From: Arcanobacterium haemolyticum
Lineage (GTDB): Bacteria > Actinomycetota > Actinomycetes > Actinomycetales > Actinomycetaceae
Length of the DNA stretch: 64,000 bases
Assembly (NCBI GenBank): GCA_021532125.1
Contig: JADYUX010000003.1
Location: 1 to 64,000 of the forward strand
Direction: 5' to 3'
Shown: in pieces, positions 44,858-48,482 of the stretch
Layout: every line of letters starts with the position of its first letter
Numbering within the stretch: position 1 is the stretch's first letter
Made by a program: the position numbers and the translations under genes
Notes under the pieces: generated by a model
Databases searched by the model: none
Told to the model about the DNA's origin: nothing
The model's input: the letters and a program-made list of their open reading frames with translations, nothing else

Positions 44858-45253
44858 ATGACCGAGATTATTGACTACCCAGAGATGACTGACGACGAAG
44901 CCGCACTTGTTGCTTTATATCGGCGCCTTAATAAAGACATGATCGACAGAAATATCGACGACATGGCCGATATTTTCGACGAGTCCTACACCTTGCATCG
45001 CATGACAGGTGTGCGACAGACACGTGAACAATGGTTCGCTGACATGATGAACGGACGCATGACCTATGACGCTTCTACGGAAGTATCGTGATCGTGCGTT
45101 GTGCGCGGCGATCGGGCGACGGTGACCGGCCGCAGCATCGTGGACGCACAGATTTACGGCAGCAGGAACACGCGGCCGTTGCAGATGACCTTTGATGCAC
45201 ACAAAAACGATGGAATATGGCAGTTCGTTTCCGCCGTTGCCTCATTCTTTTAA
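44858..45253 (+). pseudogene. NTF2-like protein gene with in-frame TGA
   Basis: The frame from 44858 codes for an NTF2-like/DUF4440-type domain (IIDYPEMTDDEAALVALY, then YTLHRMTG). After 77 codons it meets TGA at 45089-45091. In the same frame it continues without further stop through GDRATVTGRSIVDAQIYGS and MTFDAHKNDGIWQFVSAVASFF to TAA at 45251, exactly the C-terminal half expected. The gene is thus intact except for one nonsense codon, pointing to recent inactivation, a sequencing error or read-through. Confidence 0.82.
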
Positions 45254-45278: not shown

Positions 45279-46202
45279 TTAGTCAGTCGAGGCAATATGC
45301 AGTCTGTCTGGCCGACGAGCACTCGCCTCAATAAGGTCTTCCCAGCCCGGCGGAAAACCCAGCTTAATGAGCCGGTAATCGTCGTTCGTTTCGGTCGCGC
45401 GACGAATATCGGCTATCAGTTTCCTTCGACGCGGCGGCGTAAGAATGGCCGATAACCCGAGAACGGCAGCAAAAACACTGTTAGGAAAGAGCGTGAATCC
45501 CGGTAAGTTTTCACTAACGTAGACCCGCGTTTGGTGCGGTATAGCAAACTGCGCCGCCATTCGTCGACCATAGAGACGCGAGTGGTGAGCGACGAGGTTA
45601 CGCAAAACGACGAGTGTCTTCAACAGGTTTTCCAGAGCGTCATATTGGAAACCAATGAGCCGTGCTGCTGCTTTCTGATCACTTGGCAGCATATTTTTGT
45701 AGAGCTTCGAGATCGTACCGAAGCTGAGGAGCTCAACCACCACCCACAGCGGGTACTGCCCGCCATATTCCTGTTCGTAGACCTCAAGAAATGGCTCCCG
45801 CGACGAGTCAATCGCCGACTCCACGTTCCCCAGGAAGGAATGATGGTGCTGAAGGTCCTCGAAATGCGCAGGATCGAGGTAGCCAATCGGACCATACTTG
45901 CGGGTGAGCACATAGGAGCAGGCCACTCGCGTCGCTTGTTCAGCCTCGCGGAGGTAGGGAAAGAGGGCTTCCCGTAACGCACAGTCTGTAGTGTATCGAC
46001 GAACAAGCTGACCAAACGTGGCTCCGGGTACGAAATTCCCCAATTCGTCGACGAGGTCTGTGTAATAGCCACGGAGATGGTAGTAGTTCACACGCGAGAG
46101 GACATGGCGTGCACGCTCGGGATCGTCGACGACGAGGCCCTTCACGGCAAGGTGCTGGACTTGCTCAACGAAACTGAGGTGAGGTTTAAGAGGGCGCGAC
46201 AC
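45279..46202 (-). CDS. Abi_2-family (AbiD/AbiF-like) HEPN protein 1
   Basis: Protein of 307 aa. The N-terminal KPHLSFVEQVQHL then VLSRVNYYHLRGYY is the classical Abi_2 opening. The motif RNLVAHHSRL (R201, N202, H206) matches the RNxxxH signature of HEPN ribonucleases. Abi_2 proteins abort phage infection in Lactococcus. The GTG at 46202 is chosen over the ATG at 46253 because GAAGG lies 6 nt before it and homology starts there. A promoter and hairpin element lie directly upstream. Convergent with the NTF2-like pseudogene. Confidence 0.85.
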   Translation of the reverse strand: MSRPLKPHLSFVEQVQHLAVKGLVVDDPERARHVLSRVNYYHLRGYYTDLVDELGNFVPGATFGQLVRRYTTDCALREALFPYLREAEQATRVACSYVLTRKYGPIGYLDPAHFEDLQHHHSFLGNVESAIDSSREPFLEVYEQEYGGQYPLWVVVELLSFGTISKLYKNMLPSDQKAAARLIGFQYDALENLLKTLVVLRNLVAHHSRLYGRRMAAQFAIPHQTRVYVSENLPGFTLFPNSVFAAVLGLSAILTPPRRRKLIADIRRATETNDDYRLIKLGFPPGWEDLIEASARRPDRLHIASTD

Positions 46203-46219: not shown

Positions 46220-46279
46220 AAAAATAAGGACCGCCATGGTTCACTCCCAACAAGTTGGGGCGTGTGGCGGCCTCTGTTA
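46220..46279 (-). ncRNA. Structured RNA element before Abi gene 1
   Basis: Expected transcript begins near 46279. Outer stem GGCCGCCA (46272-46265) pairs with TGGCGGTCC (46236-46228, one bulge). A CAC/GTG helix lies inside, and a core hairpin CCCAA-CTTG-TTGGG occupies about 46259-46246. The stem is followed by a U-rich run (46227-46220), as in an intrinsic terminator. The core CGCCCCAAC…GTTGGGAGTG is identical in the leader of the second Abi gene. Role as small RNA, antitoxin RNA or attenuator is inferred. Confidence 0.55.
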
Positions 46280-46285
46280 CTGCCC

Positions 46286-46314
46286 AATCTACCGGTGTTG
46301 CCAGGGCAGGTCAA
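46286..46314 (-). promoter_or_regulatory. Promoter of Abi gene 1 and its RNA element
   Basis: TTGACC (46314-46309), 17-nt spacer, TAGATT (46291-46286) on the minus strand. It would start transcription about 7 nt further, at the foot of the structured element. Confidence 0.7.
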
Positions 46315-46429
46315 TGGGCGTTCGCGTGCCTTTTCATCCGCGATTGGCGGGGCGTATCGCTAAGAAACGGTGGAGTCGCGCTCACACCAGGGATAGATGA
46401 CGATGCCATGAGCAGCTACACTCCCGCTC

Positions 46430-46615
46430 CTAGCTGCGCGGCCCTGAAGATCGGAGAGCTTGACGAGAGGCTTCACATCGACGGATAAACGCAATTTGCC
46501 CGGCCCTATCAGTAGCCGAAATGTTTGCCCGTTCACGGCGAACCTCACGCATCTGCTCACGTAACGACTCATAGGTTTGCGCGTCATCACTCGCACACGC
46601 CGCCGCATGAATGGC
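46430..46615 (-). pseudogene. Unidentified coding-like remnant
   Basis: A minus-strand frame of 61 codons has strongly protein-like, charged helical content (AQTYESLREQMREVRRERANIS…) and ends in TAG at 46432-46430. It lacks a plausible start: a TAG stop lies immediately upstream at 46616-46618, and the same frame is open beyond it. It looks like the 3' end of a lost gene. Family not recognised. The remaining parts of 46315-46780 show no other structure. Confidence 0.4.
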
Positions 46616-46780
46616 CTAGCAACCTGGTTCATCAATATCGCTGATCCTATGATGGGGCAATTCATGAACCCCGAGGGGCCATTTAAGAAATGTGTCGATG
46701 GTACACACAACGTTCTCAGTGAAGACGCCATGCATCTACCATTCGCTACACCGCCACCTGAATATATCGAGCGATGTCAG

Positions 46781-47722
46781 TTATTTAAACGACTGCCAAT
46801 CTCGTGGCAGTCCAGGGGCTTGACGTGTGACGAGAGGGTTGGGGAGAAACTCGTCATTGATAAGGGCAGCAACTTTCTCAGCCCAGGCTGAGCCTGGTGA
46901 ATAGGTCTTGAGAAGATAGGTCATGAAAACTAGGGCGCCGAAAACTTTCTTGCTCTCTTGTGCAGGGAGGTCTTCTAGTCCTGAGATTCGCCGTAGTGTT
47001 TCAGTGGGTGCTGTCGTATAGGAACGATTCCAGCATCGGGCATGATGTGCCTCGGTGTTTCGCACGACTGTGAGTTGCTCATACCATCGTGCGCTCGGTG
47101 ATTCTTTTAGGAAGCTACGACGAGTCGGAAGTGGTAGGTCATTAAGGTCGACGATGAGGCCAAGACGTTCATCTATCACTCGTTGATCTGATCGACGCAG
47201 ACCTTGAAACATCATCGAGATGTCACGGAAGTCGAGGACTTCTGATAATACCCATAGCGGAAACTGTGACTCGTAGTATTGCGCGTAATGTTTGATCGCT
47301 GTGTTACTGCTTTCGCTACGGTGGATGCGCTGGTTGAGTCGTTTTCGCCATTCGTCGTGGGGAAATGAGGGGCGGAACACCTCTTTATCTTGGTATCTCA
47401 GTGGATCTGGGATGCATAACTGTTGGCAGATGTGGACACGTAGACCCACTTCGATCCGTTCGATCCCGTCGTGTATGAGGGTGCGGAGTTTTCGATCTGC
47501 CTCGTATAACGCTGTGACGTCACTGAATCGTGTTCCTGGACTGTAAGTGTCGAGACGTCGCCCATTAACGATCATTCGTGCTGGATACGAGTAGGCTGAT
47601 AAACGGTAATATCCAACGTTAGAGAGCCACTGTCTGGCTTCGTCCTCATTGACGTCCATGCCTCGTTGCCGCATCAACTCAATTTGTTCGTGCACCGTCG
47701 TTCCTGGCTTCAACGCTCGCAC
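46781..47722 (-). CDS. Abi_2-family (AbiD/AbiF-like) HEPN protein 2
   Basis: Protein of 313 aa. Opening LKPGTTVHEQIELMRQRGM then WLSNVGYYRLSAYSYP is the Abi_2 pattern. VVRNTEAHHARCW (R221, N222, H226) gives the HEPN RNxxxH motif at the same place as in the neighbour. Outside these motifs the two proteins are strongly diverged. Base composition is visibly lower in GC (about 50 %) than the surrounding genes, suggesting transfer. GTG start behind an AGGGGG site. Lies between gene remnants and an IS3 end. Confidence 0.87.
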   Translation of the reverse strand: MRALKPGTTVHEQIELMRQRGMDVNEDEARQWLSNVGYYRLSAYSYPARMIVNGRRLDTYSPGTRFSDVTALYEADRKLRTLIHDGIERIEVGLRVHICQQLCIPDPLRYQDKEVFRPSFPHDEWRKRLNQRIHRSESSNTAIKHYAQYYESQFPLWVLSEVLDFRDISMMFQGLRRSDQRVIDERLGLIVDLNDLPLPTRRSFLKESPSARWYEQLTVVRNTEAHHARCWNRSYTTAPTETLRRISGLEDLPAQESKKVFGALVFMTYLLKTYSPGSAWAEKVAALINDEFLPNPLVTRQAPGLPRDWQSFK

Positions 47723-47733
47723 TATCGCCCCCT

Positions 47734-47797
47734 TTGCCGCAAAAGAGGATCAGCCCACTCCCAACTTTCGTTGGGGCGGGCTGACCTGTTGCGGCAA
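47734..47797 (-). ncRNA. Structured RNA element before Abi gene 2
   Basis: Outer stem TTGCCGCAA (47797-47789) with TTGCGGCAA (47742-47734). Inner stem TCAGCCC/GGGCTGA, a small internal loop, and a core hairpin CCCAAC-GAAA-GTTGGG (47774-47760). The core words CGCCCCAAC and GTTGGGAGTG are the same as before Abi gene 1, while both outer stems and the tetraloop differ. It ends next to the ribosome binding site. TAGACT (47802-47797) could be a -10 box but would cut into the outer stem, so the 5' end is uncertain. Confidence 0.55.
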
Positions 47798-47928
47798 GTC
47801 TATCACCGGGATACGACGGATACTACGCATCGTGGTACACAGCCGTTTATCGTGTCCTCGCTCGTCGGTGAGTGACTGTTCGTCCACGTAGGCGCGCCAT
47901 TGTGTGCGCCATTTTCAGGCCACTTTCC

Positions 47929-48294
47929 TTATGGATTCTCAGTCCTTCTTTTGCCGGGATAGGGAATGAGTCCTCGCGAGCTTGCCGGGCACTGTGAGCT
48001 TCCTCGAGATAAGCGATCATCATCGGGGCGGACGGTCGAGCTCCGTTGCGAAAAAGCCGAAGCAGTCCGCAAAATCTCGTTCGCTCGCCGCAGCTCAGCG
48101 TTCTCACGCTTCAGGCGTTTCACCTCCCCGCCTATCTCACGCGTGGCCCCAGGACGTTGACCAGAATCAATCAGTGATTGTTCATACCAGTGGCGCATCA
48201 ACCCCACCGACGCCCCGAGCCTCAGCACGATCTTTACACTCTTGCGAAATACCTCTTAAGCATGCCCCTATCCTTTCAAAAACAGGTAGGAACA
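47929..48294 (-). mobile_element. IS3-family insertion sequence remnant (5' end)
   Basis: One IS end is recognisable at 48294-48270 (minus strand TGTTCCTACCTG, then a GAAAGGA ribosome binding site and ATG at 48263). OrfA is shattered: a short MLKRYF start, a frameshift, then WYEQSLIDSGQRPGAT, RLKRENAELRRANEILRTASAF, the hallmark leucine-zipper end of OrfA. A second frameshift leads into a scrap of OrfB (MMIAYLEEAHSA) before the trace is lost near 47930. The other end is missing. Confidence 0.85.
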
Positions 48295-48408: not shown

Positions 48409-48482
48409 TGGCGGGGACAGGATTTGAACCTGCGACCTCCGGGTTATGAGCCCGGCGAGCTACCGAACTGCTCCACCCCGCG
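48409..48482 (-). tRNA. tRNA-fMet (CAT), initiator
   Basis: 74-nt cloverleaf on the minus strand. The acceptor stem starts CGCGGGG with an unpaired first position. The D loop contains AGTTCGGTA, and the anticodon loop CTCATAA sits in a stem with three G-C pairs (CCGGG/CCCGG), the mark of initiator tRNA. T loop TTCAAAT. CCA is not encoded. Confidence 0.95.

Follow-up and report, generated by a model that had tools for sequence, protein, structure and literature searches.

Two predicted AbiF/AbiD toxin genes of Arcanobacterium haemolyticum, each preceded by a candidate RNA antitoxin of its own subfamily

Small hairpin RNAs encoded upstream of Abi_2/AbiF genes are represented in Rfam by the abiF RNA family (RF03085). 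In ToxIN and other type III toxin–antitoxin systems, too, the gene for an RNA antitoxin comes directly before that for the RNase it counteracts, although the toxin fold is unrelated to Abi_2/HEPN. In the RCd22-AbiFCd system of the Clostridioides difficile phages phi027 and phiC2, a promoter is followed by a hairpin RNA and then by the AbiF gene; RCd22 binds AbiFCd directly and so neutralises it both in cis and in trans, with transcription ending mostly ahead of the toxin gene (PMC12373285). The residues that matter include R210 and H215 in PbAbiF and R202 and H207 in C. difficile AbiF (PMC12373285). PbAbiF has been solved in complex with its RNA (8VZ6), which carries a long single-stranded bulge (PMC12737573).

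We compared these systems with two Abi_2 genes on the minus strand of a 64-kb window, that is, the whole stretch of 64,000 nucleotides analyzed. Gene 1 (45279-46202) encodes a 307-residue HEPN protein of the Abi_2/AbiF family and gene 2 (46781-47722) a 313-residue HEPN protein of the Abi_2/AbiD family. The preferred start codons are the GTG at 46202, which follows GAAGG and lies downstream of the hairpin discussed below, and the GTG at 47722, which follows AAAGGGGG (47728-47735). Both products matched the Pfam Abi_2 profile (PF07751, cut-off 25.6 bits) over essentially its whole length (gene 1, E 3.9e-42, 145.1 bits, profile positions 1-183 of 184; gene 2, E 2.6e-43, 148.9 bits, 1-184 of 184), as well as the PADLOC AbiD profile (E 2.9e-68 and 9.1e-57, respectively). 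They also matched the solved Abi family protein 8VZ6 (E 2.7e-24 and 4.9e-30), to which both align nearly full length with low sequence identity and a conserved RNxxxH motif. This motif reads RNLVAH in gene 1 (residues 201-206) and RNTEAH in gene 2 (residues 221-226), and it corresponds to the arginine and histidine residues named above. From these sequence features, the two genes are predicted to be phage-defence genes that encode RNA-cutting toxins. We found no sign of a Cas13/type VI system, as the locus holds no repeat array and the RNxxxH first encountered in either protein is the sole copy belonging to its Abi_2 domain.

Two features of the surroundings were noted by eye. A minus-strand reading frame of 99 amino acids (47929-48228), near a tRNA gene (48409-48482), looks like the remnant of an IS3-type transposase helper and gave no Pfam match; the Abi pair may lie within an inserted segment. 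On the plus strand, around 44860-45250, lies a short, seemingly frameshifted reading frame (MTDDEAALVALYRRLNKDMIDRN..), perhaps a pseudogene.

The leader of gene 1 contains a promoter, TTGACC-17-TAGATT, whose -35 box (46309-46314) and -10 box (46286-46291) we could confirm as originally described, as we could the U-run at 46220-46227, which is interrupted. Just after this promoter lies a predicted AbiF-type RNA of 59 nt (46220-46278, minus strand). It starts with AACAG at 46278 and consists of an outer helix, GGCCGCCA/TGGCGGTCC, a small 5′ and an approximately 6-nt 3′ internal loop, the latter being AACCA(U) at 46236-46241, and an inner hairpin with a bulged A. Trimmed to its predicted ends, it folds more stably than shuffled sequences (z -3.75). 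For an independent assessment, we used a covariance model, R2, whose nine source sequences, gene 1 not among them, were AbiF leaders from Bacillota, from phages and from L058, a locus of a congener; seven of the ten pairs in its alignment are changed on both sides. Searched against the 64-kb window, R2 returned the gene 1 leader from AACAG to the U-run (30 bits, E 3.3e-5) as the sole significant match, the next best having an E-value of 3.8. When R2 was run with stricter filters in the search of the 213 genomes of the family, gene 1 was not reported.

The architecture delineated by R2, which includes a short inner helix, is that of RF03085. Bacillota AbiF leaders on plasmids contain RF03085 and run in the order AACAG, outer stem, A, CGC...GCG, GACCA, outer stem and U-run; the Bacillota members share with the gene 1 RNA the 5′ AACAG, the outer helix, a CGC/GxG inner helix, the (A/G)ACCA 3′ internal loop and the U-tail, whereas the inner hairpin of the gene 1 RNA is longer and has the bulged A. 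Rfam itself does not detect the relationship: at the curated cut-off of 37 bits, which the phiC2 positive control passed with 37.6 bits, RF03085 matched neither the window nor the genome, and at permissive thresholds the window leaders and 20 family loci gave chance matches only. RCd22 differs from both RNAs of the window in having two motifs and a separate terminator, as compared with one hairpin per gene.

The gene 2 leader harbors a different RNA, which we call type A. The predicted molecule (50 nt, 47741-47790, minus strand) forms a continuous hairpin with one bulged A, followed by the 3′ tail AUCCUCUUUU with a short U-run, and its fold stands out strongly against shuffled sequences when trimmed to the predicted ends (z -6.81). 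It lies just after its own extended -10 promoter, TGATAGACT (47797-47805). We place its start at 47790 because TGATAGACT occurs at the same spacing as the promoter upstream of 43 type A copies in the family, which shows the pattern TGnTAnnnT (98% of the copies have A at -11, 95% have T at -7) together with TTG near -35; the initiating base is A. A held-out model, R3, built without gene 2 and its closest relative, L078, recovered the gene 2 RNA with 48 bits (E 5e-12) as the only significant match in the window. The covariation expected in a larger alignment was indeed found for this subfamily: among 29 distinct type A RNAs, 97.0% of the cells are paired and 7 of the 16 pairs are doubly changed, a result that beats 500 of 500 shuffles and all slid versions. 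In the window search, R2 did not report the gene 2 RNA, which departs from the RF03085 architecture in having no large 3′ internal loop; conversely, the type A model scored the gene 1 RNA at noise level (12.6 bits, E 0.49). At neither RNA was a standard intrinsic terminator called. Abi genes on plasmids of Mycolicibacterium and Rhodococcus (L134, L135) likewise have type A in front of them, and at an E-value of 0.001 type A was matched in 6 of 390 sampled genomes of the class, including the window's own.

The original prediction had rested on a core, CGCCCCAAC..GTTGGGAGTG, shared by the two leaders, for which it claimed a single conserved element with covarying flanks. Exact matching retrieved precisely two copies in the 64-kb window, both on the minus strand and immediately upstream of the Abi_2 genes (46242-46262 at gene 1; 47756-47778 at gene 2), and none in 100 shuffled windows. 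Some details needed correction. At gene 1, the two identical halves are separated by just 2 nt (TT), and what had been described as a CTTG tetraloop borrows its C and G from the core. The outermost stem assigned to gene 2, TTGCCGCAA/TTGCGGCAA, probably lies outside the RNA, with its 5′ arm (47789-47797) at about -7 to +2 of the predicted start. We rejected this stem as part of the RNA, since it is mostly upstream of that start and is unpaired in L078, the nearest relative. Nor is the literal core conserved elsewhere: with a loop of 3–8 nt, it was matched 20 times across 395 genomes belonging to the class, a chance-level figure that does not exceed the roughly 32 matches, by our count, of a reversed control pattern. 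Conservation instead concerns the fold, the 5′ end and the outer stem, in a different manner for genes 1 and 2.

We then considered the leaders of relatives. Abi_2 is present in 105 of the 213 genomes of the family, and about 110 leaders of Abi_2 relatives were read. They fall into a few hairpin classes, whose spacing from the gene hardly varies. Besides AbiF-like hairpins and type A, the class of gene 2, these are type B (CCGGTTCCG..CCAGGGCCGG), type C (ACCGGCTC..AGAGCCGGT) and type D (CCCGGTCAGGCCTC..AAATGACCGGG). Labels were assigned by regular expression, which left 40 leaders unlabelled. On a FastTree tree of 111 proteins, the RNA labels require 17 changes, compared with a mean of 60.7 after shuffling, and none of 200 shuffles was as low. 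All 26 type-A-labelled proteins belong to one clade of 27 members (support 99), the clade of gene 2; the leader of the remaining member, L057, is cut by the contig end. Gene 1 forms a long branch and groups with AbiF of phage phiC2, a Cytobacillus AbiF and L058 of the congener (support 93). It has no close relative within the family (best full-length match, 32%), its best matches among phage proteins are from C. difficile phages (29%), and a search of the genome contigs with its protein sequence found no relative. As judged from these sequence comparisons, the RNA subfamily follows the protein clade and the two RNAs of the window belong to different subfamilies, the pattern that specificity of each RNA for its cognate protein would produce. 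Tandem hairpins were seen before a single Abi_2 gene in L013, L022, L029 (two different classes) and L119 (two of type A).

These data bear on the origin of the shared core. Duplication or gene conversion within the genome could have given the gene 1 and gene 2 RNAs a core that is common by descent, and the identity of 19 core bases in one genome, unmatched in 100 shuffles, speaks for such an origin. Against it, the two RNAs fall into different subfamilies with different nearest relatives, their proteins fall into different clades, and the inner stem of L058, to which gene 1 is related, is not the same. We consider common descent unlikely, and we rejected the notion that one and the same element occupies both leaders, as the held-out models place the two in different subfamilies. 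The inner stem common to both, CCCAAC/GUUGGG, is a variable part of the RNAs, and its sharing may reflect coincidence, convergence or local exchange. Comparative evidence, along with what experiments have shown for other AbiF systems, lends strong support to the proposed selection on an RNA, whereas the argument from one conserved core is not supported: the subfamilies differ, the shared inner stem is variable in the gene 2 subfamily, and gene 1 gives no significant type A match.

Many type A RNAs have no toxin gene beside them. Of 51 matches scoring 45 bits or more across the 213 family genomes, 33 by our count precede an Abi_2 gene, three of them one whose protein belongs to another clade, and 18 stand alone, with no Abi_2 within about 1.5 kb or, where the contig is shorter, as far as it reaches (L155, L160, L162, L177, L178, L180, L181, L184-L190 and L192-L195). 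The stand-alone copies have kept the promoter. In an alignment fitted to the structure, 21 toxin-less copies, none of which was in the model, have 97.9% of their cells paired and 10 of 16 pairs doubly changed. One stand-alone copy lies behind the same regulator-like gene in three related genomes (L155, L160 and L187), and in L162, L180 and L181 the RNA is directly followed by 10–22 codons resembling an Abi start (weak E-values). In L191, L200 and L203, type D genes are preceded by decaying type A copies, which suggests that some toxin-less copies are relics. AbiF-type RNAs (AACAGGACTCCCCGCACCTCTC..GTGTCCCAGGGGAGACGTTTTT) likewise occur with no Abi_2 nearby in L222, L224, L225, L226 and L227. 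The same kind of RNA as in these five loci was seen, together with its AbiF gene, in a human gut phage contig (L213). A gene-1-type RNA (CACGC..GCGAACCAGGCGGGG), resembling that of L058 of the congener, was noted around position 1501 of L223, again with no Abi_2 nearby. Tentatively, and with more doubt than confidence, we raise the possibility that selection maintains the type A and abiF-type RNA genes that stand alone in many actinobacteria without the cognate toxin. In this reading they would work in trans, either as decoys or as RNAs conferring immunity (anti-addiction), and their targets would be AbiF/AbiD toxins that arrive on mobile elements or are encoded at another site of the genome.

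The hairpins could also be purely cis-acting leaders that limit the toxin by attenuation, termination or translation control, as for AbiD1, in which case the free RNA would play no part. Each hairpin is situated between promoter and start codon with a U-rich tail after it, RCd22 also works by premature termination, and the 5′ untranslated region of Lactococcus lactis AbiD1 is structured (PMC12373285). Nevertheless, 18 of the 51 strong type A copies keep fold and promoter with no Abi_2 downstream, a mere terminator would need no sequence class tracking the protein clade, and the solved AbiF binds its RNA (8VZ6, PMC12737573). We regard a purely cis-acting leader as improbable, while attenuation may have a contributing role. 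That the hairpins are fortuitous, for instance repeats at the DNA level or the usual terminators of genes lying upstream, is scarcely credible: GC-rich hairpins are common in such genomes, but the covariation, the fixed promoter spacing, the clade specificity and the detection by held-out models all argue against it.

We consider it highly likely that the locus comprises two adjacent, independently transcribed AbiF/AbiD toxin–antitoxin units with RNA antitoxins, similar to type III systems. At the level of sequence, each has the type III layout, a putative RNA antitoxin gene with its own promoter directly upstream of the toxin gene; unlike in ToxIN, there are no tandem antitoxin repeats in the window. 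In each unit, the role of the small hairpin RNA is very probably to silence its toxin. Of the three options originally put forward, an attenuator, a phage sensor and an antitoxin-like RNA for a HEPN nuclease, the last is strongly supported by the comparative evidence together with the experimentally characterized AbiF systems. Judging from the promoter positions, transcription would begin at the first base of the 50–60 nt hairpin RNA. By analogy with RCd22 of C. difficile, most transcripts would end at the U-rich stretch 3′ of the hairpin and accumulate as small RNA, read-through providing the toxin mRNA. The hairpin would bind its cognate HEPN RNase and hold it inactive, as expected from the homology with RCd22/AbiFCd and PbAbiF, and loss of the RNA, for instance in phage infection, could free the RNase and stop growth. 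The gene 2 RNA is without the long single-stranded bulge of the PbAbiF complex, and its contacts must differ from those of PbAbiF, because it has no large 3′ internal loop, the element with the nucleotides reported to inhibit PbAbiF.

The locus therefore very probably represents a known kind of system, an AbiF/AbiD toxin with an RNA antitoxin in an arrangement known from Clostridioides and Prevotella, in two actinobacterial variants that Rfam does not recognize. We found no report of the two variants in the open literature; they may already be described by Zilberzwige-Tal et al., reportedly the main paper on AbiF and Cas13. Covariance models of the kind used here find systems that Rfam misses. 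AbiF with its RNA is a proposed starting point of Cas13, and RNA antitoxins of very different shape, associated with different toxin clades, offer naturally occurring pairs in which evolutionary change of RNA recognition by HEPN RNases can be examined. The many toxin-less copies, in turn, raise the question of whether RNA antitoxins can persist as immunity genes.
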